Source of the DNA: Spiribacter halobius
Lineage (GTDB): Bacteria; Pseudomonadota; Gammaproteobacteria; Nitrococcales; Nitrococcaceae
NCBI RefSeq assembly: GCF_020883455.1
Contig: NZ_CP086615.1
Span: 1,178,001-1,242,000, forward strand
Direction of reading: 5' to 3'
DNA: 64,000 nt
The position numbers and the translations under genes are program-made. The first letter of the stretch is position 1. Every line of letters begins with the position of its first letter. Shown in pieces: positions 49,782 to 64,000 of the stretch. The notes under the pieces are model-generated. The model was not told the DNA's origin and did not search any database. It saw nothing but the letters and a program-made list of their open reading frames with translations.

Positions 49782-50897
49782 ATGAGAAGGCAATTGCATC
49801 GCCTGGCCGTCTCCGGCCTGGCCGCCGCCGTGCTGGGGCTGGTCAGTGCCGGCAGCGTGCAGGCACAGGAAGAGACCTATGAGTTCAGCATCCAGACCGC
49901 GGTGCCGAACTCCAGCATCTATTTCGGCCTCGTGCAGGATTTCGCCGACCGCCTGGAGCGTATGTCCGGCGGGCGTCTGCAGGCTCGGGTGCTGCCCGAC
50001 GGCGCCGAGGTGCAGGCGTTCGAGATCCTAGACGCCGTCAGCGACGGCATCGTGGAGGCCGGCTTCGCCTGGCCGCATTACTGGTCCGGTCAGCATTCGT
50101 CCTACGTCCTGTTCTCCAACGTGCCGGCGAGCACGGGCATGGATCAGGACACACTCATGTCCTGGTACTACGAGGGCGAGGGCCATGAGCTCTACACGGA
50201 GCTCACCGAGGAGATCATGGGGTACAACACCGTGCCCTTCCTGGTGCAGCCCATGGGCCCGGACCCGCTCGGCTGGTTCTCGCAGCCGTTCGAGAGCATG
50301 GAGCAGTTCCGGCAGCTGAAGTACCGGGCGCCGCCGGGGATCGCCGGGCGCACCTATAACGAGATGGGCGTGCCGGCGGTGGCCATGCCGGGCGGCGAGA
50401 TCGTGCCCTCCGCCGAGCGCGGCACCATCGACGCGGCCGAGTGGATCGGCCCGGCGGACGACCGTGCCCTGGGGCTGAGCAACATCTGGGACTACTACTA
50501 TCTCCAGGGTCTGCACCAGCAGACGGACGTCGGCGAGATCCAGTTCAACAAGGACTTCTGGGAGAGCCTCCCCGACGACCTGCAGGCCATCGTCGAGACC
50601 GCAGTGCTTGCCTCCACGGCGAAGACGCAGAACGTCAATCTGCGGGAGAACTCGATTGCGGTTCAGCAGTACCAGGAGGAGGGCATCGAGGTCCGCGATA
50701 CGCCACAGGAGTACTACCGCGCATTCATCGAGGCGCAGAACACCATCATCCAGGACTACCTGGAGGCAGACGAGTTCTTCGCCCGCGTGTACCAGTCCCA
50801 GGCGGACTTCGCGGAGATGGTGTACCCCTACCACTCGCGCAACATGACGCTGTGGAACAACCTCATCCAGGAGGCAGCGGAAGCCCGCGGCGAGTAA
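49782..50897 (+). CDS. TRAP transporter solute-binding protein (DctP family), operon 3; candidate isethionate binding
   Basis: This 371-residue periplasmic protein has a signal peptide ending SAGSVQAQ. Motifs FEILDAVSDGIVEAGFAWPHYWSGQH and DPLGWFSQPFESMEQFRQLKYRAPPGIAGRTYNEMG match the paralogue at 26489, with the likely carboxylate/sulfonate-binding arginine in KYRAPPG. A classic terminator follows. It sits between the permease and the IclR gene. Confidence 0.9.
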   Translation: MRRQLHRLAVSGLAAAVLGLVSAGSVQAQEETYEFSIQTAVPNSSIYFGLVQDFADRLERMSGGRLQARVLPDGAEVQAFEILDAVSDGIVEAGFAWPHYWSGQHSSYVLFSNVPASTGMDQDTLMSWYYEGEGHELYTELTEEIMGYNTVPFLVQPMGPDPLGWFSQPFESMEQFRQLKYRAPPGIAGRTYNEMGVPAVAMPGGEIVPSAERGTIDAAEWIGPADDRALGLSNIWDYYYLQGLHQQTDVGEIQFNKDFWESLPDDLQAIVETAVLASTAKTQNVNLRENSIAVQQYQEEGIEVRDTPQEYYRAFIEAQNTIIQDYLEADEFFARVYQSQADFAEMVYPYHSRNMTLWNNLIQEAAEARGE

Positions 50898-50925
50898 ACG
50901 GGTCGCTGTGAACGACCCCCGTAGC

Positions 50926-50966
50926 CACGGAGGCGGGCCGGTTGGCGGCCCGCCTCCGTGCTTTTT
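50926..50966 (+). terminator. Rho-independent terminator of TRAP operon 3
   Basis: Fourteen-base perfect arms CACGGAGGCGGGCC and GGCCCGCCTCCGTG around seven bases, followed by CTTTTTG. It lies 29 bases after the binding-protein stop. Confidence 0.9.
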
Positions 50967-51050
50967 GATGCGACAATGCCGGCGCCGCGTGCCGCGGAGT
51001 GCGCTCCGGTGACGTGGGGTCACGCGCCAAGGCTTGGAAACGGAAACTCC

Positions 51051-51839
51051 ATGGGCCGCACGAGACAGACGGGCTCCACCGGGGAGCGCCTGCTGAAGCT
51101 GATGCATACGGTGACGGAGGCGGGCCGCCCGCTGTCCCTCCCTGAGATCACCGAGGCCGTCGGGCTGCCCAAGCCCACGGTGCACCGCCTGGTGTCGCTG
51201 CTCGAGGACAGCGGCCATCTCATCAAGGAAGCGGACGCGCGGCGCTACGCGCCCGGTCCCGCCCTGCACCGGATGGCGCTCGCCGTGCTGCAGAGCCAGC
51301 CACGCAGGGCCGCGCGCCATGCCGTCCTGCGCCGACTCGCCGAGAAGGTGGGCGAGGCCTGCAATATCGTGCTGCTCGACGGTGACCAGCTCACCTATAT
51401 CGATCGCGTGGATACCCAGTGGCCGCTGCGGATTCGGCTCGAGGTGGGTTCCCATGTCCCGGTGCACTGCACGGCCACCGGCAAGCTGCTGCTCGCACTG
51501 CAGCCAAAGCGTGTCCGGGACCGGCTTATCCGCAGCGCTCCACTGGCGTCGATGACGCCGCACACCTTGACGGACCCCGAGCGCCTGCAATCGGTCCTGC
51601 GCCAGATTCGGCGTGCCCGGGTAGGGACGGATGATCAGGAATTCCTGCCGGAGATGGTGGCCATCGCCGTTCCGGTGACGCCGCCGGCGGGGCCGCCGGT
51701 GGTTGCCGTATCCATACACGCCCCCGTCTTCAGGCGAAGTCTGGCGGCGCTGCGCGGCTTCCTGCCGGATCTGCGTGCCGCGGCGCGGGAGCTGGAGGAC
51801 GTCCTCTATGAAGGCACCGACGCCGGTGCCCTTGCCTGA
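51051..51839 (+). CDS. IclR-family transcriptional regulator
   Basis: This 262-residue regulator has the N-terminal winged helix (PLSLPEITEAVGLPKPTVHRLVSLLEDSGHL) and the IclR effector domain (EKVGEACNIVLLDGDQLTYIDRVD, HVPVHCTATGKLLLALQPKRV). IclR regulators control aromatic and small-acid catabolism; an IclR gene (IseR) regulates isethionate use in known clusters. It lies between the TRAP operon and xsc and could control both. The ATG at 51051 is chosen because upstream codons lack family similarity. Confidence 0.88.
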   Translation: MGRTRQTGSTGERLLKLMHTVTEAGRPLSLPEITEAVGLPKPTVHRLVSLLEDSGHLIKEADARRYAPGPALHRMALAVLQSQPRRAARHAVLRRLAEKVGEACNIVLLDGDQLTYIDRVDTQWPLRIRLEVGSHVPVHCTATGKLLLALQPKRVRDRLIRSAPLASMTPHTLTDPERLQSVLRQIRRARVGTDDQEFLPEMVAIAVPVTPPAGPPVVAVSIHAPVFRRSLAALRGFLPDLRAAARELEDVLYEGTDAGALA

Positions 51840-51936: not shown

Positions 51937-52038
51937 GTAGGCAAGAGTCGTGTCAACCGCGCGATGTCCGCGAGGACCGAGCGCCGGGTATCTGGCCGGG
52001 CCGGGCGCCGGACTACGCAAAGCAAGAGGGGAGAAGCA

Positions 52039-53790
52039 ATGACCCGCATGACCTCAAGCGAGGCCTTCGTTGAAACGATGGTGGCCCACGGCGTCCGCGA
52101 TGTCTTCGGCATCGTCGGCTCCGCCTTCATGGACGCGCTCGATATCTTCGAGCCGGCCGGAATCCGCTTCATTCCCACCGTGCACGAGCAGGGTGCGGCC
52201 CACATGGCCGACGGCTACTCTCGCGTGAGCGGCCGCCACGGCGTGTGCATCGGCCAGAACGGCCCCGGCGTGACCAACTTCGTCACCGGCATCGCGGCGG
52301 CCTACTGGGCCCATTCCCCGGTGGTGGCGATCACCCCGGAGACCGGCTCCAACTCCATCGGCCTGGGTGGCTTCCAGGAGACCGAGCAGCTGCCGATCTT
52401 CTCCAAGATCACCAAGTACCAGGGCCACGTGGTGCGCCCCGACCGCATGGCGGAGTTCACCGGGCGCTGCTTCAACCGCGCGATCAACGAGCGCGGCCCG
52501 ACGCAGCTCAACATCCCGCGTGACTACTTCTACGGCGATGCGGACTACGACATCCCGGGGCCGAAGGTCATCGAGCGTGGACCCGGTGGCGAGAAGAGCC
52601 TGGCCGAGGCGGCGGAGCTGCTCTCCCGTGCCGAATTCCCGGTGATCATCTCCGGTGGCGGCGTGATCATGGCCGGCGGCGTGGATGCCGCGGTGAAGCT
52701 CGCCGAGCGCATCGGCGCTCCGGTGGTGAACTCCTACCTGCACAACGACTCCTTCCCGGCTTCGCATGAGCTCTGGGCCGGGCCCCTTGGCTATCAGGGC
52801 TCCAAGGCCGGCATGAAGCTGCTCAGCCAGGCGGATGTCGTGCTGGCTCTGGGCACCCGCCTTGGTCCATTCGGCACGCTGCCGCAGCACGGCATCGACT
52901 ACTGGCCGAAGCAGGCGAAGCTCATCCAGGTGGACGCCGACGAGCGCATGCTCGGGCTGGTGAAGCCGAGCGACGTCGACATCTTCGGCGACGCCCGCGC
53001 CGCTGCCGAGGCCCTGCTGCGCCATCTCGAGGGCCGCGAGCTCGCTGCCGACCGCAACCGCGATCAGCGCGCCGAGACCATTCGCCGGGAGAAGGAGGCC
53101 TGGGAGGCGGAGCTGAACGAGTGGACCCACGAGCGGGACGAGTGGAGCGTGAAGATCGCCCAGGAGGAGGGCGGCGGCATGCATCCCCGCGAGGCCCTGC
53201 GGGCGCTGGAGAAGGCCATGCCGAAGGACGCCATGGTCTCCACCGACATCGGCAACATCTGCTCGGTGGCCAACTCCTACCTGCGCTTCGAGCGGCCCAA
53301 CAGTTTCCTCGCCGCCATGAGCTTCGGCAACTGCGGCTACGCCCTGCCCACCGTCATGGGCGCCAAGGTGGCCGAGCCCGACCGCCCGGCCGTGGCCTAC
53401 GTCGGTGACGGTGCCTGGGGGCTGAGCATGATGGAGACGCTCACCTGCGTGCGCGAGGGCATCGCGGTGACGCCGGTGGTCTTCAACAACCGCCAGTGGG
53501 GCGCGGAGAAGAAGAACCAGGTGGACTTCTACGGCACCCGGTTCGTTGGCTCCAACATCGAGCACACCGACTGGACCGCGATCGCCAAGGCCATGGGCGC
53601 CGACGCGGTGCGCGTGGACAAGCCCGAGGAGCTGGGCGAGGCCTTCGAGAAGGCCTGCGACGCTCAGAAGCAGGGCAAGACCACGGTGGTGGAGGTCATG
53701 GTGACCCGCGAGCTGGGTGACCCCTTCCGCCGCGACGCCCTGAAGAAGCCGACGCGGTTCCTGGACAAGTACAAGCCGTACACGGCGTAA
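52039..53790 (+). CDS. xsc: Sulfoacetaldehyde acetyltransferase
   Basis: This 583-residue thiamine-diphosphate enzyme (EC 2.3.3.15) converts sulfoacetaldehyde and phosphate to acetyl phosphate and sulfite. The cofactor-activating glutamate lies in FIPTVHEQGAAHMADGYSRVSG and the ThDP/magnesium motif is YVGDGAWGLSMMETLTCVREGIAVTPVVFNN. Length and the internal sequence GGFQETEQLPIFSKITKYQGHV fit Xsc rather than acetolactate synthase. It is the convergence point of the three proposed branches here. It has its own promoter region and is followed by a strong terminator, so it is monocistronic. Confidence 0.95.
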   Translation: MTRMTSSEAFVETMVAHGVRDVFGIVGSAFMDALDIFEPAGIRFIPTVHEQGAAHMADGYSRVSGRHGVCIGQNGPGVTNFVTGIAAAYWAHSPVVAITPETGSNSIGLGGFQETEQLPIFSKITKYQGHVVRPDRMAEFTGRCFNRAINERGPTQLNIPRDYFYGDADYDIPGPKVIERGPGGEKSLAEAAELLSRAEFPVIISGGGVIMAGGVDAAVKLAERIGAPVVNSYLHNDSFPASHELWAGPLGYQGSKAGMKLLSQADVVLALGTRLGPFGTLPQHGIDYWPKQAKLIQVDADERMLGLVKPSDVDIFGDARAAAEALLRHLEGRELAADRNRDQRAETIRREKEAWEAELNEWTHERDEWSVKIAQEEGGGMHPREALRALEKAMPKDAMVSTDIGNICSVANSYLRFERPNSFLAAMSFGNCGYALPTVMGAKVAEPDRPAVAYVGDGAWGLSMMETLTCVREGIAVTPVVFNNRQWGAEKKNQVDFYGTRFVGSNIEHTDWTAIAKAMGADAVRVDKPEELGEAFEKACDAQKQGKTTVVEVMVTRELGDPFRRDALKKPTRFLDKYKPYTA

Positions 53791-54477: not shown

Positions 54478-55893
54478 TCAAAGCATCTCGTCGCGGAGGT
54501 AGTACCAGTGGTAGAGCAGGCGCTGGCCGAGGCGTCGGAATGGGGCCAGCGGATGGCCGGGCAGGGGGTTGTCGAAGATCGGCAGGTCGCGCTTCTGCGG
54601 CCTGCCGGCGATGCGCTCGGCCATGCGGCGGCCAGCCTGGCAGGAGTACATCACGCCGTTGCCGCCGTAGCCGAGGGCGTAGAACACCGGCAGTGACGAG
54701 TCCGGCTGGCAGACGCGGGGCATCATGTCGTGGCTGACGTCCACCCAGCCCCACCAGGAGTAGTCCACCTCGATTCCGGCGATCGGCGGGAACTTGCGGG
54801 CGATGGCGTCGGTGAGCAGCTTCTCGTGTTTCGGGTTCGGCGCCTCCGCGCCGGTGACCGCGCTGCGGCTGCCGATCTGCACGCGGTCGTCGGGGAGCTT
54901 GCGGTAGTAGAAGCGCAGCGTCCGGGTGTCCGTGATCACCTCGTTGGTGACGAAGTTGCACGCGGCCTTCTCGTCCGCAGTCAGCGGCCGGGTCACCAGA
55001 GAGTTGGAGAGCACGGGGAAGGTCCGGTTGCGCAGCGTCGGGTGCAGGCCCGGCATGGTATAGCCGCCGGTGGCGATGCCGACGGCCCGGGCGCGCACGG
55101 TGCCGCCGGGGGTGCGCAGATGCTGGGCGCCGTCGCGGGTCTCCCAGCCGAGCACCGGGCTCGCCGGGTGAACCTTCACGCCGAGCTGGCGCGCGTAGGC
55201 GAGGTAACCATAGGCGAGCTTGAGCGGGTGCACGCCGATGCCGTCCGGCTCGTGCAGCGCGCCCACCGCCTCGGCCTCCTCCACGTAATGCCGGTGCAGG
55301 CCCTGGCGGTCCAGCAGCTCGGTCTCGTAGCCGAACTGCTCGGCGAGCACCCGCGCCTCGGCCTCGAGCTTGCGCATGGCCTTGTCGCGGTGGGCGATGT
55401 AGAGATGGCCGCCGGGCTGCGGCTCGCAGTCGACGGGCAGCTCGCCGAGCAGGGCCTCGAACGTGCCAAAGCCCTCGCGGATCTCCTCGTGCAGTCGGCG
55501 CGCGGTGTCCAGCCCCCAGCGCCGGATCCACTGCGAGCGGCTGAGGCGGCCCGAGGCATTCTGCGCCTGGCCGCCGTTGCGGCTGCTGCAGCCCCAGGCG
55601 ACACGGTTGGCCTCAAGTACCGTGGCGCGGATGCCGTGCTCGCGGGCGAGGAAGATCGCAGTGCAGAGGCCCGTGTAGCCGGAACCGACGATGACCACGT
55701 CCGCGTCCGTGTCCGCGCGGATGGGGCCGTCGTCATCCGGGGGCGTGCCGGCGGTGGCGGCCCAGTAGGTCGGCGCGTAGTCCTGACCGGTGCCGGGCTG
55801 CGGGGTGACCAGCGGGTCATGGGTGGGGTCGTAGGCCGCCGGACGCTCGTTGGGGTGCGTCGGGGGCGTTGGACGGCTGGCGGCATGGCCCAT
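54478..55893 (-). CDS. tauY: FAD-dependent amine oxidoreductase, probable taurine dehydrogenase large subunit (TauY)
   Basis: This 471-residue DadA-type flavoprotein has an N-terminal extension then DADVVIVGSGYTGLCTAIFLAREHGIRATVLEANRVAWGCSSRNGGQ, the FAD motif and flavin-proximal segment. Later come VRARAVGIATGGYT and YALGYGGNGVMYSCQAGRRMAERIAG. Such enzymes oxidise amines to aldehydes. Directly downstream of a SnoaL-like TauX candidate and near a TauR-type regulator, taurine to sulfoacetaldehyde is the expected reaction. GAGGAG precedes the ATG. Gamma-glutamylputrescine oxidase is the main alternative. Confidence 0.78.
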   Translation of the reverse strand: MGHAASRPTPPTHPNERPAAYDPTHDPLVTPQPGTGQDYAPTYWAATAGTPPDDDGPIRADTDADVVIVGSGYTGLCTAIFLAREHGIRATVLEANRVAWGCSSRNGGQAQNASGRLSRSQWIRRWGLDTARRLHEEIREGFGTFEALLGELPVDCEPQPGGHLYIAHRDKAMRKLEAEARVLAEQFGYETELLDRQGLHRHYVEEAEAVGALHEPDGIGVHPLKLAYGYLAYARQLGVKVHPASPVLGWETRDGAQHLRTPGGTVRARAVGIATGGYTMPGLHPTLRNRTFPVLSNSLVTRPLTADEKAACNFVTNEVITDTRTLRFYYRKLPDDRVQIGSRSAVTGAEAPNPKHEKLLTDAIARKFPPIAGIEVDYSWWGWVDVSHDMMPRVCQPDSSLPVFYALGYGGNGVMYSCQAGRRMAERIAGRPQKRDLPIFDNPLPGHPLAPFRRLGQRLLYHWYYLRDEML

Positions 55894-55964: not shown

Positions 55965-56363
55965 CTACGGGGCGACAGGCGCCAGCGGCGGGCGGTCCTT
56001 GCGGAACGCCTTCTTCTCGCAGATCAGCCCGTCGCGGAAGCGGAACAGATCGCAGCCCTCGGCCTCGATCCGGTAACCGTCCGGTCGCGTTGCGACGAAG
56101 GTCCACTCGGAGACGCCGCGCTCGCCGGCGGCGAAATGCCGGGTGTCCCGCCACTGGACGTCGGGCAGGCCCTCCCAGACCTTGGCGAAGGCGGCGCGCA
56201 CGGCCTCGCGGCCTGCGATACGCTGGCCATGGGCCTCGGGACCCGCCGCGGTCTCGAACACGCAGTCCTCGGTCATGTGCGCGACCACCGCGTCGGCGTC
56301 GTGGCGGTTGAAGGCGTCGAAAACCGCCTGCAGCACCTCGGTGCGTGCCTGCTCATCGCTCAT
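55965..56363 (-). CDS. tauX: SnoaL-like protein, probable taurine dehydrogenase small subunit (TauX)
   Basis: This 132-residue NTF2/SnoaL-fold protein reads RTEVLQAVFDAFNRHDADAVVAHMTEDCVFETAAGPEAHGQRIAGREAVRAAFAKVWEGLPDVQW, then FVATRPDGYRIEAEGCDLFRFRDGLICEKKAF. Taurine dehydrogenase small subunits, as I recall, belong to this fold. It is 71 bp upstream of tauY on the same strand with a strong GGAGGAG. Paired direct repeats of TauR type lie upstream at 56444-56476. Confidence 0.75.
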   Translation of the reverse strand: MSDEQARTEVLQAVFDAFNRHDADAVVAHMTEDCVFETAAGPEAHGQRIAGREAVRAAFAKVWEGLPDVQWRDTRHFAAGERGVSEWTFVATRPDGYRIEAEGCDLFRFRDGLICEKKAFRKDRPPLAPVAP

Positions 56364-56443
56364 CGGGATTCTCCTCCATTGGCTTCGACTGCGCGCCCCG
56401 GGGCGGCGATTCGCTTACGGTAGGGGGCCACGCGCAGGCGAAG

Positions 56444-56476
56444 CTAGAGCCAGTGTCCCGGCGCGGCTTGGACCAG
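56444..56476 (-). promoter_or_regulatory. Candidate TauR-type direct repeats upstream of tauX
   Basis: On the minus strand two boxes, CTGGTCCAAG and CTGGCTCTAG, have a start-to-start distance of 23 bp. MocR regulators such as TauR typically bind direct repeats about two helical turns apart. The same box type with the same period occurs upstream of the tauLKM genes at 61585-61619. No experiment is implied. Confidence 0.6.
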
Positions 56477-56500
56477 CGCGACCCCCTGCCTCGGAAACGC

Positions 56501-56684
56501 CTAGCCCGCATATCTCACCGATTCACGGCTGCGGGCGCGGATCTGGCGGGCAGTCCTGCGTTGCGCTCGGCCCGGGTGCTCGACGTACTGTCGAGTACGC
56601 CTGCGCGCCCGGACTCTCCCGCGCCTTGTCCTGCCCGCCATCTCCACGCCCTCGCCTCGCGAATCGGTGAGATATGCGGGCTAG
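56501..56684. repeat. 184-bp palindromic element, reference copy
   Basis: Ends CTAGCCCGCATATCTCACC and its exact reverse complement. The middle contains GTACTGTCGAGTAC-like palindromic core. It lies between the tauR stop and the tauX promoter repeats; the right CTAG supplies the tauR TAG stop. It is nearly identical to the inverted copy at 19024-19207. Confidence 0.92.
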
Positions 56685-58192
56685 TAGCCGCCGAGCTGCT
56701 CGGCGATGAGTCCGGCGAGCCGGCGGATGCCGGGTTCGATCCGCTCCACCGGGATGGACGAGAAGCCGAGGCGGAAGCAGTGCTGGGGTGGGCGCTCGGA
56801 GAGGAAGTTGACGTCGCCCGGCTCGAAGAAGATGCCGGCCTCCGCTGCCCGCGCCGCCAGTCGCCGGGCATCCAGCGCGGACGGCCCGCGGATCCAGTAG
56901 GAGGTGCCGCCGAAGGTCGGCATGCGGAAGGTGTCCGGAAGGTGCTCGTTGAGGGCCTCGCCCATGGCCTGCCAGCGCTCCCGATAGACGTTGCCGAGGC
57001 GCTGGGTGAGGGCGTCGTGGTGGCCCAGGGCCAGGAATTGCGCGGCAGCGTGCTGATTGTTCGTGGGCGGGTGGCGCAGCATCAGCCGGCGCAGGGCGCG
57101 GGCCTCGCGGATCAGATCCGGCGGGCCGACGAGGTAGCCGATGCGCAGGCCCGGGTCCAGCGTCTTCGAGAGGCTGCCGACGTAGAGCACGCGCCCCTGA
57201 CGGTCGTAGCTCTTGAGGGCGGGCGTGGGGCTGCCGAGGAAGTTGATCTCGCTCTCGTAGTCGTCCTCGATGATCACGAAGCCGGCCTGGGCGGCACGCT
57301 CCAGCAGCGCCTTGCGGCGCCCGGCGGGCAGCGTGACCGTGGTCGGCGACTGGTGGCTGGGGGTGACGAAGACATAGTCGCAGGCGTCCAGGTGCTCGCC
57401 GATCACCAGGCCCTGCTCGTCCAGGGGCAGCGGCACCACGGCGTCGGACATCATCTGCAGGATGTTGCGGGCGTCCGGGTAGCCGGGGTCCTCGATGCCC
57501 ACGCGGGTGTGCCGGGACACCAGCAGGCCCGCCAGCAGATAGAGCGCGTTCTGCGTGCCCAGGGTGACCAGGATCTCCTCCGGGGCGGCCCAGACGCCGC
57601 GCTTCGGCAGCACGCGGGTGCGGATCTGCTCCACCAGCAGCGGGTCGTCGGCGTCCAGCCGGTCGCGCACCAGGTCGCGCACGCCCTGCACGCTCAGCGC
57701 CTGGCGGTAGCACTCCCGCCAGTCGTTCAGCGGGAACATCGCCGGGTCCATCTGGCCGTAGATGAACGGGTACTCGTAGCGCTCCCAGTCGATGGGCTTG
57801 ACGATGTTGCGCTGGGCCGACGGGCGGGCCATCAGCCGTGCGTCCCAGCGCACGCAGCCCTCCACGGCGGCCGCGGCGGCGTCCGGCTCGCCGGGGGCGA
57901 GATTGCGCCGGTGCATCTCCGGGTTGACGTAGAAGCCGCTGCGCTCACGGGCGAGCAGATAGCCCTCGTCCACCAGATGCTGGTAGGCGAGCATGACGGT
58001 GTTGCGGGCGACGCCGAGCTGGCGCGCCAGCTCGCGGCTGGAGGGCAGGGGCACGTCCACCGGGATGTGCCCGTCAAGGATTGCACCCACGAGCGTCTCG
58101 CGGATCTGCTGCTGCAGGCTGATCCCGCACTGGGTATCCAGCTCGAACAGGCGCGACCACATCGCGCCGTCCGAACGCGTCGGCATTGGCAT
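56681..58192 (-). CDS. tauR: MocR-family (GntR/aminotransferase) regulator, TauR-like
   Basis: This 503-residue protein joins a GntR winged helix (residues 20-95: SLQQQIRETLVGAILDGHIPVDVPLPSSRELARQLGVARNTVMLAYQHLVDEGYL) to a fold-type I aminotransferase domain with the PLP lysine in YVGSLSKTLDPGLRIGYLVG. TauR regulators activate taurine genes. It sits between the TRAP genes and tauXY, all on the minus strand. Paired direct repeats at both tau promoters agree with MocR binding. The stop is provided by the adjacent palindromic element. Confidence 0.85.
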   Translation of the reverse strand: MPMPTRSDGAMWSRLFELDTQCGISLQQQIRETLVGAILDGHIPVDVPLPSSRELARQLGVARNTVMLAYQHLVDEGYLLARERSGFYVNPEMHRRNLAPGEPDAAAAAVEGCVRWDARLMARPSAQRNIVKPIDWERYEYPFIYGQMDPAMFPLNDWRECYRQALSVQGVRDLVRDRLDADDPLLVEQIRTRVLPKRGVWAAPEEILVTLGTQNALYLLAGLLVSRHTRVGIEDPGYPDARNILQMMSDAVVPLPLDEQGLVIGEHLDACDYVFVTPSHQSPTTVTLPAGRRKALLERAAQAGFVIIEDDYESEINFLGSPTPALKSYDRQGRVLYVGSLSKTLDPGLRIGYLVGPPDLIREARALRRLMLRHPPTNNQHAAAQFLALGHHDALTQRLGNVYRERWQAMGEALNEHLPDTFRMPTFGGTSYWIRGPSALDARRLAARAAEAGIFFEPGDVNFLSERPPQHCFRLGFSSIPVERIEPGIRRLAGLIAEQLGGY

Positions 58193-58309
58193 GGGAACCC
58201 TCTCACCGGGCGGCGACGGCCCGGACCCCGGTTGCCGAATCCAGGGATAACGCGGCGGCCGTGCGCACGCAAGCCTCGCGGAGGCGCCGGCCAGGCGCCG
58301 TCCAACGGC

Positions 58310-59617
58310 TCAATCCATCAGATTCGGCAGCCACAGCGCGATCTCCGGGAAGATGAAGACCAGCGAGAGCCCTAGCAGCTGCAGCGCGACGAACGGCCAG
58401 ATGGAGCCGTAGACGTCCCCCATGGTGACGTCCCTGGGCAGGATGCTCTTGATCCAGAAGAGGACAAAGCCGAAGGGCGGCGTGAGGTAAGCCACCTGGA
58501 TGTTGACGATGAACAGCACGCCGAACCAGATACGATCCACGCCGAGCGCATCGACGATGGGCATGAAGATGGGCGTGCACAGCATGATGATCGCCCAGTC
58601 GTCCATGACCATGCCGAGTACCAGGATGACCAGCATCATCATCAGCAGCACGCCCGTGGTGCCGCCGGGCATGGCGAGCACGAGCTCCGTGATCAGCCGC
58701 TGGCTGCCGAGGGTGTTGAAGACGTTGAGAAAGGCGTTGGCGCCAATCAGGATCCACAGCCCCATGCCGGCAAGCTTGACGGTGGTCACCAGGGAATCCT
58801 TCAGCACCGCCCACGTGAGCCGGCCGTAGGCGAGGTTGATCAGGAAGGCCCCGGTGGCGCCGAAGGCCGCTGCCTCGGCGGGCGTGGCGATACCGCCCCA
58901 GATGACCCCGAGCACGATGGTGATCAGCACCACGAAGGGCCAGATCCGCCAGACCGAGCCGATCTTCTCGCGCCGGCTGAACTTCATGTCCGGCGGCAGC
59001 GGCGGGCCGATGTGGGGCTGGAAGTAGCAGCGCACCGTGATATAGAGCGCGTAGAAGAACGCCAGCATCAGCCCCGGTACGACCCCTGCCAGGAACAGGT
59101 CGCCGATGGAGGCATTGGCGAGCAGGCCGTAGAAGATGAACGGGACGCTCGGCGGGATCAGGGCGCCGAGGGCACCGCCCGCCGCGATCGAGCCGATGGC
59201 GATGCTGCGGTCATAGTTGTAGCGCATCATCGAGGGGTAGGCGATCTGCCCCATGGTGATGGTGGCCGGCGGGGTAATGCCGGTCACCGCCGCGAAGATC
59301 GTGCACACCCCGACGGTGCCCGCGGCGAGCCCTCCCGCGATGTGGCCGATGAGCTTGTAGACGGCGTCATAGGCGGCGTCCGCGATCCCGGAGTAGCGGA
59401 TCAGATTCCCCATGAACAGGAACAGGGGGATGGTGACCAGGATGGAGTTCCAGGGCGTTGAGTAGAAGGCGCTCGGCACCACCATCAGCGAGCGCGGGGA
59501 GAAGATGGCGGCGAACAGCACGGCCGTCCCGCCCAGCCCGAAGGCCACTGGCAGGCCCAGGAACAGCGAGACGAAGAGACAGCCGAAGAAAAGCAGCGTG
59601 ATCAGTTCTACGCTCAT
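58310..59617 (-). CDS. tauM: TRAP transporter large permease subunit, TauM-like
   Basis: This 435-residue permease shows DctM signatures VTGITPPATITMGQIAYPSMM, IAAGGALGALIPPSVPFIFYGLL and GIATPAEAAAFGATGAF, with about 12 helices. It belongs to a subgroup distinct from the permeases at 14006, 28363 and 48358. Within the tau gene set it probably imports taurine, as TauKLM does in other proteobacteria. It is the third gene after the small subunit and binding protein. Confidence 0.85.
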   Translation of the reverse strand: MSVELITLLFFGCLFVSLFLGLPVAFGLGGTAVLFAAIFSPRSLMVVPSAFYSTPWNSILVTIPLFLFMGNLIRYSGIADAAYDAVYKLIGHIAGGLAAGTVGVCTIFAAVTGITPPATITMGQIAYPSMMRYNYDRSIAIGSIAAGGALGALIPPSVPFIFYGLLANASIGDLFLAGVVPGLMLAFFYALYITVRCYFQPHIGPPLPPDMKFSRREKIGSVWRIWPFVVLITIVLGVIWGGIATPAEAAAFGATGAFLINLAYGRLTWAVLKDSLVTTVKLAGMGLWILIGANAFLNVFNTLGSQRLITELVLAMPGGTTGVLLMMMLVILVLGMVMDDWAIIMLCTPIFMPIVDALGVDRIWFGVLFIVNIQVAYLTPPFGFVLFWIKSILPRDVTMGDVYGSIWPFVALQLLGLSLVFIFPEIALWLPNLMD

Positions 59618-59731
59618 GTGCTTACCCGTGCCGGAAAACCGCCCGGGCTTCGATCAGGCCTGTGCCTGCCTCGCCCGGTGGGTGGCGTCCCGCCGTAGCG
59701 ACGGGGCGCCGCGAATGTGGTCGACATGAGA

Positions 59732-59763
59732 ATGCCCGCCCGGGCGCTGCCCCGGGCGGGCAT
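59732..59763 (-). terminator. Intercistronic stem-loop after TauK-like gene
   Basis: Perfect 13-base arms ATGCCCGCCCGGG and CCCGGGCGGGCAT around six bases, located 40 bases after the binding-protein stop in the sense of transcription. As in the other transport operons, it separates the binding protein from a permease gene. Confidence 0.65.
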
Positions 59764-59802
59764 CCTCAGTCGTGGCTGCCTGGCCTCCTGCCGGGCAGGG
59801 TT

Positions 59803-60855
59803 TCAGTCGACCTTGCCCTTGTCCTCGAGGAAGCGCTGGTAGATCGCCACACCTTCCGCGGCGAGCTCCGACTGTTCCGCGATCTGGGGCCAGACCTCGT
59901 TGATGGCGATCTCACGCATGCGCTCGACCTCCTCCGGGGGCAGCTCCACGACCTGGCCGCCCGCGTCGCGCACGGCCTGGAGCGCGGCCTCCACGCCATC
60001 GGCGTGCATCCGGCTGGTCTCGAAGTAGGTCTCCTCGAAGATGCCCATGATCTGGTCCCGCTGCCACTGGGTCAGCGCGTTCCAGGAGTCCAGGTTGATG
60101 TAGGTGGACTGATGCTGGGCGGGATTCCAGCCAGGCATGATCGCGTAGTCGATCACCTCGTGGAACGACATGTCATCGATGCCGCCGGTATCCCAGTAGG
60201 TGCCGTCCACGGTACCGAGACGGATGGCGGTGTAGATGTCGCCCGGGCCCATGGACACCGGGGAGCCGCCGATCGCCTCGTGGAACATGGCCTGCGGGCC
60301 GCCGGCGCGCATCTTCCGGCCCTCGAAGTCATCCAGGGTTTTCACCTCGAAGGTGGTGAACATGGCGTTCGGGCCCTGGTTGGTCCAGCCGGCGAACTGC
60401 AGGCCGATCTCGTTGGCCGCCTTCTGGACCACATGGCCGGCGCCGTAGTCCTCGCCCCACATGACCTCCCAGGCCTCCTCGGGGCTCTCGGCACCCATGG
60501 GCAGGCCGAAGGCCAGCATGCCCTCGGGCATGTCGCCGCCGTAGACCGTCGCCCAGCAGGCGGTGCCGTCGGTGACGCCGGCGACGGCCGCACCGAAGGC
60601 TTCACCGGAGCTGGTGATGGCGCCGGCGGGTTCCACCGTGATCTGGACGGTGCCCTCGGTGGCCTCTTCAACGGCCCTGGCCCAGGGAATGATGCCGCTG
60701 GCCCAGCCGGCGTCGCCGGAGTCGAAGCACGGCTGGATCACCCATTCGGTGGTCTCGTCCGGTGGGCCGTCCTGCGCCGATGCGATGGAGGCGCTGAGGC
60801 CGAGGGCGGTTACGCCGAGTAGTGCGACACCGGTACTTGTTGCGAGCTTGCGCAT
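59803..60855 (-). CDS. tauK: TRAP transporter solute-binding protein, TauK-like
   Basis: This 350-residue periplasmic protein has a signal peptide ending SASIASAQ and a DctP fold: GIIPWARAVEEATEGTVQITVEPAGAI, FTTFEVKTLDDFEGRKMRAGGPQAMFHEAIGGSPVSM and GTVDGTYWDTGGIDDMSFHEVIDY. It contains two cysteines near the mature N-terminus (QPCFDSG, GTACWAT). Taurine is the likely ligand from context. The ATG at 60855 with AGGAG upstream is preferred over 60915. Confidence 0.83.
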   Translation of the reverse strand: MRKLATSTGVALLGVTALGLSASIASAQDGPPDETTEWVIQPCFDSGDAGWASGIIPWARAVEEATEGTVQITVEPAGAITSSGEAFGAAVAGVTDGTACWATVYGGDMPEGMLAFGLPMGAESPEEAWEVMWGEDYGAGHVVQKAANEIGLQFAGWTNQGPNAMFTTFEVKTLDDFEGRKMRAGGPQAMFHEAIGGSPVSMGPGDIYTAIRLGTVDGTYWDTGGIDDMSFHEVIDYAIMPGWNPAQHQSTYINLDSWNALTQWQRDQIMGIFEETYFETSRMHADGVEAALQAVRDAGGQVVELPPEEVERMREIAINEVWPQIAEQSELAAEGVAIYQRFLEDKGKVD

Positions 60856-60924
60856 GGTTCCACTCCTGCTCCGTCGATGGGACGCGTCGAAACGCGAGGT
60901 TGTTGCCGGTCGCACCGGCTATCG

Positions 60925-61455
60925 TTATGCCCGTTGTGGGTCGTCCTCGTCGGTCACCCGACCGGCGATGACGCCGATATCCACGATCAGCTGCTTGAGC
61001 ACCACGAGCAGTACCACCACCCCGGTGATCGGGATGAAGATCTTGATCGGATAGATCGGGATCGGAATCGCGGTCGGCGTGTGCTGATCGAGCATCACCG
61101 ACAGCATGGCCGCGTCCCAGCCCTTCCAGATCAGCGCCCAGAGAAAGAGGAACGTGAATACCGAGGTGATCAGGTCGCAGATGGCGCGCCCGCGCCGGGA
61201 GAGGGCCGCATAGAACACGTCCAGCCGTACGAAGCTGTCCTGCTTCAGGGCATAGATGCCGCCGACGCAGGCGAGCAGGACCATGGCGGCCTGGATGGTG
61301 GTGCTGATCCAGAGGGAGGCGCTGTTGAGGACATAGCGGAGGAAGACGTCGGTCACGCCGAGGATCATGCAGTAGAGGATCAGCACCCAGCCGATCACAC
61401 CCATGATCTCGGCCAGGGCATCGATCCCCCTTCCGAGCTGCCTCCAGACCTTCAT
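60925..61455 (-). CDS. tauL: TRAP transporter small membrane subunit, TauL-like
   Basis: This 176-residue protein has four hydrophobic helices (IMGVIGWVLILYCMILGVTDVFLRYVLNSASLWISTTIQAAMVLLACVGGIYALKQDSFVRLDVF), the DctQ pattern. It is first in the tauLKM order. The ATG at 61455 is used; a TTG one codon upstream is less likely. Direct repeats for a MocR regulator lie about 130-165 bp upstream. Confidence 0.82.
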   Translation of the reverse strand: MKVWRQLGRGIDALAEIMGVIGWVLILYCMILGVTDVFLRYVLNSASLWISTTIQAAMVLLACVGGIYALKQDSFVRLDVFYAALSRRGRAICDLITSVFTFLFLWALIWKGWDAAMLSVMLDQHTPTAIPIPIYPIKIFIPITGVVVLLVVLKQLIVDIGVIAGRVTDEDDPQRA

Positions 61456-61584
61456 CAAGGAGGGTCCTCCGTCGGCTGTCTGTCGTTATTGCCGGCTCCG
61501 GGTATCGGTCCCGGTTCCTCGTGCCGCGTCGGGCGCGGCCTCTCCTGCCTCTGCCTATCGACGCTAAGCACCCCTGTCCGCGCT

Positions 61585-61619
61585 ATATAGACCCAGATGC
61601 GGCCGGAATATAGAGCCAG
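61585..61619 (-). promoter_or_regulatory. Candidate TauR-type direct repeats upstream of tauLKM
   Basis: On the minus strand CTGGCTCTATAT and CTGGGTCTATAT are 11/12 identical with a 23-bp start-to-start distance. They match the pair upstream of tauX in box sequence (CTGGNTCYA) and period. This is the strongest regulatory signal in the tau gene set. Confidence 0.65.
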
Positions 61620-61730: not shown

Positions 61731-61772
61731 ACCCGCGGCCGCAGCCGTGAATCGGTGAGATAGGCGGGCTAG
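61731..61772. repeat. One-ended copy of the 184-bp palindromic element
   Basis: CGCAGCCGTGAATCGGTGAG followed by ATAGGCGGGCTAG matches the terminus of the element at 56501. The other terminal repeat is not recognisable upstream. Its CTAG provides the stop of the short minus-strand gene at 61769. Confidence 0.65.
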
Positions 61773-62320: not shown

Positions 62321-62338
62321 GTGGAGCGAAAGGTGAGC

Positions 62339-64000
62339 ATGGATTCGGCCTCCGAGGAAGGCACCGGCGGGACCCGCGGGCGCTCCAGCATCTCCGCGCC
62401 GGAGATCGCGGCCGCGCTGCCCCGCTTCGAGGATCATGCGCGGCAGGAGCGCAAGTTCACGACCTGCTACATGTGCGCCTGCCGCTGCGGCATCGAGGTC
62501 ACGCTGGAGAACGGTCAGCCGCGGTACATCCGGGGCAACCCCAACCACCCGATCAACCGCGGCGTGCTCTGTGCCAAGGGCAACGCCGGGATCATGAAGC
62601 AGCTCTCCCCGGCGAAGCTGCGCAACCCGCTGATGCGCAAGCCCGGCAGCGAGCGCGGCAGCGGTGAGTTCGTGGAGGTCTCCTGGGAGGAGGCGCTGGA
62701 TACGCTCACCGAGCGCCTGCGCGAGATCCGCGCCACCGATCCCAACCGGCTGGCCTACTTCACCGGTCGTGACCAGATGCAGGCGCTGACCGGGCTCTGG
62801 GCGCAGCAGTTCGGCACGCTGAACTGGGCCGCCCACGGCGGCTTCTGCTCGGTGAACATGGCCGCCGCCGGCCTCTACACCATCGGGCAGTCGTTCTGGG
62901 AGTTCGCCGACCCGGACTGGGACCGCACCCGCTATTTCCTGCTCTGGGGGGTGGCCGAGGATCACGCCTCCAACCCGATCAAGCTGGGCATTGAGAAGCT
63001 CAAGCGTCGCGGCGCCAAGTTCGTCGCCATCAACCCGGTGCGGACCGGCTACCAGGCGGTAGCGGACGAATGGGTGCCGATCCGCCCCGGTACCGACGCC
63101 ATGCTGGCGCTTGCCATGTGCCACGTGCTGCTGGCCCGGGACCTGGTGGACTGGGAGTTCGTCGGCCGCTACACCAACGCCCCTTACCTGGTGATTCAGA
63201 ATCCCGGACAGTCCGACGATGGCCTCATCGCCCGCGATGGCGATGGCAACCCGCTGGCGTGGGATCCGGAGCAGGGCGGGCCCGTGAACGGCGCCGAGGC
63301 GGGTGCGACCCGGGCGCTCTTCGGCGAGTACACCCTGCCGGACGGCCGTCGCACCAAGACGGCGATGACGCTGATCGCCGAGCGCTATCTGGATGAGCGC
63401 TACAGCCCCGAGCAGGCCGCCGAGGTCTGCGGCGTGCCGGCGGAGACCATCGAGCGCCTGGCCCTGGAGATGGGCCATGTGGCCTTCAACGAGACCGTGG
63501 AGATCCCCTGCGCCTGGACGGACTGGGCGGGCCGCGAGCATGACAGCTTCGTCGGCCGGCCGGTGTCCATGCACGCCATGCGCGGCATCTCCGCGCACTC
63601 CAACGGCTTCCAGAGCTGCCGGGCGATCCATCTGCTGCAGGTGCTGCTGGGGACCATCGACGTCCCGGGCGGCCATCGCGCCAAGCCGCCGTTCCCGCGG
63701 CCCACGCCGCCCGCGATCAAGCCGGCGAAGGAGACCGCACCCAACACGCCGCTCGCCGGTCCGCCGCTCGGCTTTCCAACCGCGCCGGAGGACCTGGTGG
63801 TGGATGCCGAGGGCCGGCCGCTGCGAATCGACAAGGCCTACTCATGGGAGGCCCCGCTCGCCAACCACGGCCTGATGCACATGGTCATCAACAATGCCGT
63901 CAACGGCGACCCGTACCCCATCGACACGCTCATCCTGTTCATGGCCAACATGGCCTGGAACTCGAGCATGAACGCGGGCAGCACCCGTGCGCTGCTGCAG
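62339..64000 (+). CDS. soeA: Cytoplasmic sulfite dehydrogenase molybdopterin subunit SoeA (partial, runs off right edge)
   Basis: Only the first 554 codons are here. The N-terminus lacks a Tat signal, so the enzyme faces the cytoplasm. The [4Fe-4S] motif is CYMCACRCGIEV...GVLCAKGN (residues about 41-83), followed by molybdopterin-guanine-dinucleotide-binding segments (YFLLWGVAEDHASNPIKLGIEKLKRRGAKFVAINPVRT). TTCYMCACRCGI and GIMKQLSPAKLRNPL are as I recall from SoeA of purple sulfur bacteria. It would oxidise sulfite released by Xsc. Other DMSO-reductase-family reductases are the alternative. GTG 62321 or 62333 are alternative starts; AGGAGG is at 62311. Confidence 0.82.
   Translation, partial: MDSASEEGTGGTRGRSSISAPEIAAALPRFEDHARQERKFTTCYMCACRCGIEVTLENGQPRYIRGNPNHPINRGVLCAKGNAGIMKQLSPAKLRNPLMRKPGSERGSGEFVEVSWEEALDTLTERLREIRATDPNRLAYFTGRDQMQALTGLWAQQFGTLNWAAHGGFCSVNMAAAGLYTIGQSFWEFADPDWDRTRYFLLWGVAEDHASNPIKLGIEKLKRRGAKFVAINPVRTGYQAVADEWVPIRPGTDAMLALAMCHVLLARDLVDWEFVGRYTNAPYLVIQNPGQSDDGLIARDGDGNPLAWDPEQGGPVNGAEAGATRALFGEYTLPDGRRTKTAMTLIAERYLDERYSPEQAAEVCGVPAETIERLALEMGHVAFNETVEIPCAWTDWAGREHDSFVGRPVSMHAMRGISAHSNGFQSCRAIHLLQVLLGTIDVPGGHRAKPPFPRPTPPAIKPAKETAPNTPLAGPPLGFPTAPEDLVVDAEGRPLRIDKAYSWEAPLANHGLMHMVINNAVNGDPYPIDTLILFMANMAWNSSMNAGSTRALLQ

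Follow-up and report, generated by a model that had tools for sequence, protein, structure and literature searches.

The closest described systems are the operators of TauR, which in Rhodobacter capsulatus and in the TauR regulogs are direct repeats beginning with CTGG, with regulons that include tauXY and tauMLK (Suvorova and Rodionov 2016, PMC5320631). TauR of R. capsulatus upregulates taurine dissimilation, and characterised MocR regulators bind pyridoxal phosphate (PLP), their head-to-tail dimers being suited to direct repeats (PMC5320631); in Sinorhizobium meliloti, the promoter PtauA depends on both TauR and taurine (PMC4254191). Here we consider a stretch of 64,000 nucleotides from Spiribacter halobius (NZ_CP086615.1, positions 1,178,001 to 1,242,000 of the forward strand; hereafter the window, numbered from its first letter), in which two pairs of direct repeats lie 5' of taurine genes close to tauR. 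On the sequence evidence we predict, with considerable confidence, that both pairs are operators of the TauR encoded at 56681-58192, of activator type. As such they are a further example of already known TauR operators, and the novelty is modest, residing in the spacing and in the boxes of a paralogue.

The box pairs and their distribution

The candidate boxes and -10-like hexamers are as follows:
56467..56476, minus strand: CTGGTCCAAG, predicted as TauR box 1 at tauX (sequence, pattern scan, matrix)
56444..56453, minus strand: CTGGCTCTAG, predicted as TauR box 2 at tauX, its start 23 bp from that of box 1 (sequence, pattern, matrix)
61610..61619, minus strand: CTGGCTCTAT, predicted as TauR box 1 at tauL (sequence, pattern scan, matrix)
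61587..61596, minus strand: CTGGGTCTAT, predicted as TauR box 2 at tauL, its start 23 bp from that of box 1 (sequence, pattern, matrix)
56417..56422, minus strand: -10-like TACCGT of the tauX promoter, at offset 31 from the box 2 start (by-eye count, register from relatives)
61561..61566, minus strand: -10-like TAGCGT of the tauL promoter, at offset 30 from the box 2 start (by-eye count, register from relatives)

An earlier, sequence-only reading of the window had described paired direct repeats on the minus strand at both tau promoters, with starts 23 bp apart, and this is what we found when the sequence was re-read. The scan pattern it proposed, CTGGNTCYA, had to be replaced because the first tauX box, CTGGTCCAA, does not fit it; we used CTGGNYYWA, which all four boxes fit, each pair consisting of two direct repeats with a CTGG start. 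Its statement that published TauR boxes begin with CTGG agrees with the source, which gives direct repeats of CTGGACYTAA (PMC5320631). The window boxes do not match this consensus letter for letter, and the 23-bp relatives depart from it too; because the consensus comes from an alphaproteobacterium, we regard the mismatch as a lineage difference and no bar to membership.

The window contains two exact pairs of the form CTGGNYYWA-N14-CTGGNYYWA (100 shuffles average 0.00), and the entire genome of 4,172,350 bases contains only these two, at tauX and tauL, so that a genome scan for similar pairs, as had been suggested, yields no third exact pair and no crowd of equally good random sites. When up to two mismatches are allowed, the genome count rises to 15, versus 28 for the backwards pattern used as a control, and since the control gives more, the 13 imperfect matches look like chance. 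Because the pattern was composed after the pairs had been seen, a matrix built from other TauR loci is a more independent test. It scores the tauX pair at 24.9 bits and the tauL pair at 20.2, the runner-up in the window at period 23 reaching 14.1; in simulated sequence with the dinucleotide make-up of the window, one site of at least 20 bits appeared in 15.36 Mb (about 0.27 per 4.17 Mb), and sites of at least 16 bits at about 3.5 per 4.17 Mb.

The loci behind this matrix, the best 80 of 272 relatives from a TauR scan (1.36 Mb in total, the window not among them), were chosen solely for encoding TauR; many are Burkholderiaceae, and the 80 are therefore not independent. CTGGNYYNA pairs occur in them 28 times at period 23 and at most three times at every other period from 9 to 60, and CTGG-N19-CTGGNNNTA occurs 107 times at period 23, in 71 of the 80 loci, with at most 12 at each other period from 14 to 40. 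Iterating the matrix gave 170 sites of at least 16 bits in 78 loci (the exceptions being L045 and L103), and the final matrix, which was trained at period 23, found 171 sites at that period versus at most 12 at others from 13 to 40. The pair is kept at TauR loci across Proteobacteria, a conservation whose absence the sequence-only reading would have counted against operators. By tblastn with the window proteins, 28 of the 170 sites lie 5' of tauX, 18 of xsc, three of tauY and one of tauR. The open reading frames (ORFs) downstream of the remaining 120 form clusters of 38, 20, 9, 8 and 5, the rest being small clusters and single or unclear ORFs, with 11 sites lacking an ORF. The representative of the 38-ORF cluster is an omega-aminotransferase (AptA) and that of the 20-ORF cluster an alanine dehydrogenase, both above cut-off; others are a TauC-like permease and a molybdopterin oxidoreductase, neither of which reaches its cut-off, and an aldehyde dehydrogenase, named by eye (8-ORF cluster). 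These downstream genes fit the TauR regulons of PMC5320631.

At the 107 period-23 sites, with distances counted from where box 2 begins, the motif TAnnnT starts at offset 30 in 63 cases and at offset 31 in 12, other offsets from 12 to 45 accounting for at most five each, save 14 at offset 43. With this spacing a -35 hexamer would overlap the end of box 2 and the bases just past it, and TauR thus probably substitutes for the -35. By analogy with known TauR and MocR biology, a TauR dimer that senses PLP and taurine would sit on the two direct repeats, whose starts are separated by 23 bp (roughly two helical turns), and would activate transcription in the presence of taurine; box 2 occupies the -35 place, and the -10 hexamer follows at 30-31 bp, counted from where box 2 begins. 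On this reading tauLKM, for taurine uptake by a tripartite ATP-independent periplasmic (TRAP) transporter, would be served by the tauL operator, probably with read-through into tauR, and tauXY, encoding taurine dehydrogenase, by the tauX operator.

Among near relatives, 7 of the 54 genomes of the order, the window's own counted, have a hit to TauR with an E value of 1e-60 or below. One of these, G042, is of the same family and has tauR, tauX, tauY, tauL, tauK, tauM and xsc in a different gene order, with tauLKM oriented opposite to tauR, unlike the window; its tauL is preceded by a 27.4-bit site and its tauX by a weak site (box 2 GTGGCGCTA) that at 15.0 bits stays below the 16-bit threshold. 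Because both sites are kept in another gene order, the boxes in G042 track their genes through rearrangement. In G017, of the same order, a 22.3-bit site lies 5' of tauX, and in the tree the window TauR groups with the regulators of G017 and G042 (support 100, starred), whose loci carry tauXY. This matrix scan of order relatives left out G014 and G016 (32% identity). Exact pairs in G038, G047 and G053, three genomes that lack a TauR match at E 1e-60, were rejected as TauR sites and taken as chance because the reversed control had five hits over the 54 genomes; by matrix, the G038 pair scores 16.7 bits and those of G047 and G053 are not among hits of at least 12 bits. As a separate observation, G017 also has a 26.4-bit site (L014:10343, minus strand) upstream of a gene resembling gamma-glutamyltransferase (341.6 bits, narrowly below the cut-off of 357.85), followed by genes that by eye resemble a tripartite tricarboxylate transporter; the site may point to use of gamma-glutamyltaurine.

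The claim that the pairs are real operators is supported by their uniqueness in the genome, by conservation at TauR loci and by the MocR architecture of the regulator (PF00392, GntR, plus PF00155, aminotransferase I/II, both above cut-off). What began as a guess by eye is now a well-supported operator prediction, and the matrix and period should be usable for finding TauR sites beyond the model alphaproteobacteria.

Competing readings and a second paralogue

Several findings weigh against TauR as the regulator that binds these pairs. At 15 more distant loci, taken with 1.5 kb on each side, only three have a matrix site of at least 14 bits and 12 have none, some of the 15 showing CTGG pairs at 23 with other letters, and among the order relatives G046 (46% identity; best site 12.1 bits) and G018 (a 3.3-kb contig) have no 16-bit site near tauR. 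The period in model alphaproteobacteria is 22, not 23. NCBIfam labels the window regulator PdxR (NF052282, 352 bits versus a cut-off of 320), so that its name TauR rests on context and tree; a TauR model is absent among the families listed for the window (25 of 58), and context and operators point to taurine. Neither xsc nor the molybdopterin oxidoreductase gene at 62321 has a pair of at least 9 bits directly upstream by the matrix at periods 22-24, and both may be controlled by other means. Finally, the genome encodes a second TauR-like paralogue, 49% identical, that could bind or share the window sites:
Genome 1377931-1379445: TauR_B, 504 aa, adjoining tauABC
Genome 1376928-1383530 (L018:7929-14531): second taurine cluster, comprising a DegT-type aminotransferase, tauABC, the TauR-like regulator and a TauE-like gene

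We consider it unlikely that the window sites are bound chiefly by TauR_B, or by both regulators. In addition to its identity with TauR and its place beside a taurine ABC transporter, the promoter of its cluster has a CTGG pair of equal period; however, the boxes there are CTGGACTG, not CTGGNYCTA, and the 19-kb stretch around TauR_B contains no pair of at least 12 bits by the TauR matrix at periods 21-25. Its recognition helix has S where 83 of 83 compared relatives have N, and the window sites share the form found at those relatives. CTGGACTG is present twice at period 23 5' of the first gene of the second cluster, followed by TAGCCT at offset 30 from the box 2 start (by-eye count), and the exact pair CTGGACTG-N15-CTGGACTG occurs in the genome at this promoter alone. 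As far as sequence can tell, this suggests that the two paralogues read different boxes, which would make regulatory insulation testable within one genome. Among 274 genomes, none but its own has a close orthologue of TauR_B at E 1e-150; at E 1e-120 there are 15 genomes besides its own among 398, and because all 15 loci (the more distant ones above) match the window TauR as well as TauR_B or better, the TauR_B box is not footprintable in relatives. Relatives of the DegT-type aminotransferase are found in 27 other genomes of the 398, with tau proteins within 1.5 kb in none of the 19 loci inspected. Within the second cluster, tauA matches TIGR01729 (352 bits versus a cut-off of 304) and the TauB-like ATPase is below cut-off; tauC and the TauE-like gene were named by eye, the latter having no NCBIfam match.

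It is rather more doubtful still that TauR binds the pairs as a repressor released by taurine and not as an activator. A protein bound to a box 2 in the -35 position could block polymerase, and auto-repression has been described for MocR regulators (PMC5320631). Against this, induction of S. meliloti PtauA requires TauR (PMC4254191), the R. capsulatus protein is described as upregulating its target pathway (PMC5320631), and a conserved -10 with box 2 replacing the -35 suits an activator. Very improbable, in our judgment, is that the pairs are promoter sequence conserved as such or are bound by a different regulator, for instance the IclR-type protein encoded at 50958-51839: an IclR-family gene does adjoin xsc, but the pairs occur at 78 of 80 loci picked for TauR alone, and whether the period is 22 or 23 follows the TauR tree. 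That the two promoters are alike by chance is scarcely credible, for although CTGG is common in a GC-rich genome, other genome matches with two mismatches stand at background level, and exact pairs turn up once each in three order relatives without a TauR match (and five times in the reversed control), chance is contradicted by conservation, by uniqueness in window and genome, by the matrix scores and by the peak at period 23.

Two spacing classes

We compared the spacing of the window pairs with that at 24 further TauR-like loci (L141-L164), hand-picked from 156 matching plasmid records. With one pattern, a pair near the regulator gene was found at 22 in 12 loci (S. meliloti, S. medicae, two Ensifer, Shinella, two Aminobacter, Ochrobactrum, Cereibacter sphaeroides, Gemmobacter, Pseudorhodobacter and Paracoccus), at 23 in two and not at all in nine, and the one Polaromonas locus has a poor TTGG pair at 22. 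A looser pattern, used on six loci, adds Limimaricola at 22 and Variovorax at 23; L155 and L157 are counted as site-less, and the looser pattern shows a CTGG pair there at 22 and 23, respectively. Looser-pattern pairs in L149 and L156 (22, downstream of the regulator) and in L157 (21 and 22) were taken as chance.

In a quick tree with long-branch warnings, covering 108 of 110 regulators (the fragments L017 and L158 were dropped), all twelve 22-bp TauRs fall in a single branch of 13 rows with 100% support by the Shimodaira-Hasegawa-like approximate likelihood ratio test (SH-aLRT), the thirteenth being Limimaricola. Period labels were given by hand to L014, L015, paralogue B, L150, L160 and the window (23) and to the twelve 22s. 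The recognition helix has I in eight, L in two and M in two of the twelve, and M in Limimaricola; among 77 rows labelled 23 it has N in 76 and S in one (paralogue B), and the other 18 unlabelled rows all have N. All 107 period-23 sites have C as base 6 of box 2, a base that the pattern left free, and of 13 period-22 sites 11 have A there and two have C; a -10-like TA stands at 30 or 31 in nine of these 13. Because all 22-bp cases belong to one clade, helix residue, box and spacing are inseparable, and the inter-domain linker, considered as a cause of the spacing, overlaps between the groups (46-48 residues in the 22-bp group versus 47-80 in the 23-bp group) and is likewise confounded with clade. 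Separately, we observed that the 22-bp clade spans Rhizobiaceae, Phyllobacteriaceae, Brucellaceae and relatives in the Rhodobacterales, with 23 bp in the window's group.

Tentatively, and with somewhat more doubt than belief, we propose that at least two TauR operator geometries exist, one combining 23 bp, CTGGNNCTA and helix N (RNTV), the other 22 bp, mostly CTGGNNATA and the I/L/M clade, with the distance from -10 to box 2 kept and only box 1 shifting by 1 bp, and that two paralogues in the window genome, with distinct boxes (CTGGNYYWA and CTGGACTG), insulate TRAP-TauXY from tauABC. Box distances may differ slightly even inside one regulog (PMC5320631), and in the accessible portions of the open-access literature searched we found no statement of a 22/23 split in TauR spacing. 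The split, together with a fixed -10 register and a covarying helix residue, offers a simple system in which to study the reading of direct repeats by MocR dimers arranged head to tail.

The window cluster and its known counterparts

The genes around the two pairs are:
56681..58192, minus strand: tauR, MocR-type regulator of 503 aa (GntR winged helix-turn-helix plus aminotransferase-like domain; domain matches and tree)
60925..61458, minus strand: tauL, TRAP small permease (DctQ), first gene past the predicted operator at 61587-61619 (homology)
59803..60855, minus strand: tauK, TRAP substrate-binding protein (DctP), start codon picked by eye
58310..59617, minus strand: tauM, TRAP large permease (DctM; homology)
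55965..56363, minus strand: tauX, SnoaL/NTF2-like small subunit of taurine dehydrogenase (name from homology and context)
54478..55791, minus strand: tauY, FAD-dependent large subunit of taurine dehydrogenase (name from homology and context; start approximate)
51964..53790, plus strand: xsc, sulfoacetaldehyde acetyltransferase (TIGR03457, 939 bits versus a cut-off of 676)

Just 5' of xsc, at 49782-51839 on the plus strand, lie another TRAP substrate-binding gene and the IclR-type regulator (50958-51839), and xsc may be under IclR control. On the other side, the taurine cluster runs on (62321-64000 and L023:321-7852) with genes for a molybdopterin oxidoreductase, an iron-sulfur (FeS) protein, a membrane-subunit-like protein, a SulP permease and a phosphotransacetylase; the FeS protein is below NCBIfam cut-offs, and the membrane-subunit-like protein, without an NCBIfam match, was named by eye. 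This extension looks like a SoeABC-type sulfite dehydrogenase together with sulfate and acetyl-phosphate handling. A 24-bp sequence, GAATCGGTGAGATANGCGGGCTAG, found in the window at 56501-56684 and 61749-61772, has 166 copies in the genome with up to two mismatches (reversed control, 0) and several times forms facing pairs with starts 160 bp apart, resembling a miniature inverted-repeat transposable element (MITE) or a repetitive extragenic palindromic (REP) element. By eye, the tauR stop codon is provided by the copy at 56501-56684, whose end is 24 bp away from the first box at tauX.

Compared with known systems, the window shares with R. capsulatus and the TauR regulogs both the CTGG direct repeats and the tauXY and tauMLK targets (PMC5320631), its boxes reading CTGGNYYWA where the published ones read CTGGACYTAA. 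MocR operators in general, such as those of GabR and PdxR, are also direct repeats, often whole helical turns apart (PMC5320631), but the box sequences and targets of these two differ from those in the window (PMC4494728). The S. meliloti locus has a CTGG pair 5' of tauR, on the side facing away from tauR, where PMC4254191 places tauA; like the window pairs, that of PtauA is followed by a -10-like TA, here at offset 30 from the box 2 start, whereas its period is 22, its box 2 is CTGGATATA and the transporter is of the ABC type (PMC4254191) in place of TRAP. On plasmid pB of C. sphaeroides 2.4.1, we found one pair, in the gap between tauK and tauR, with a period of 22 and a gene order unlike that of the window. 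As in the window, however, xsc and genes for an FAD oxidoreductase, an NTF2-like protein, a TRAP transporter and a regulator stand together there, and because the same kinds of genes are grouped, this context supports the names tauX and tauY given here.

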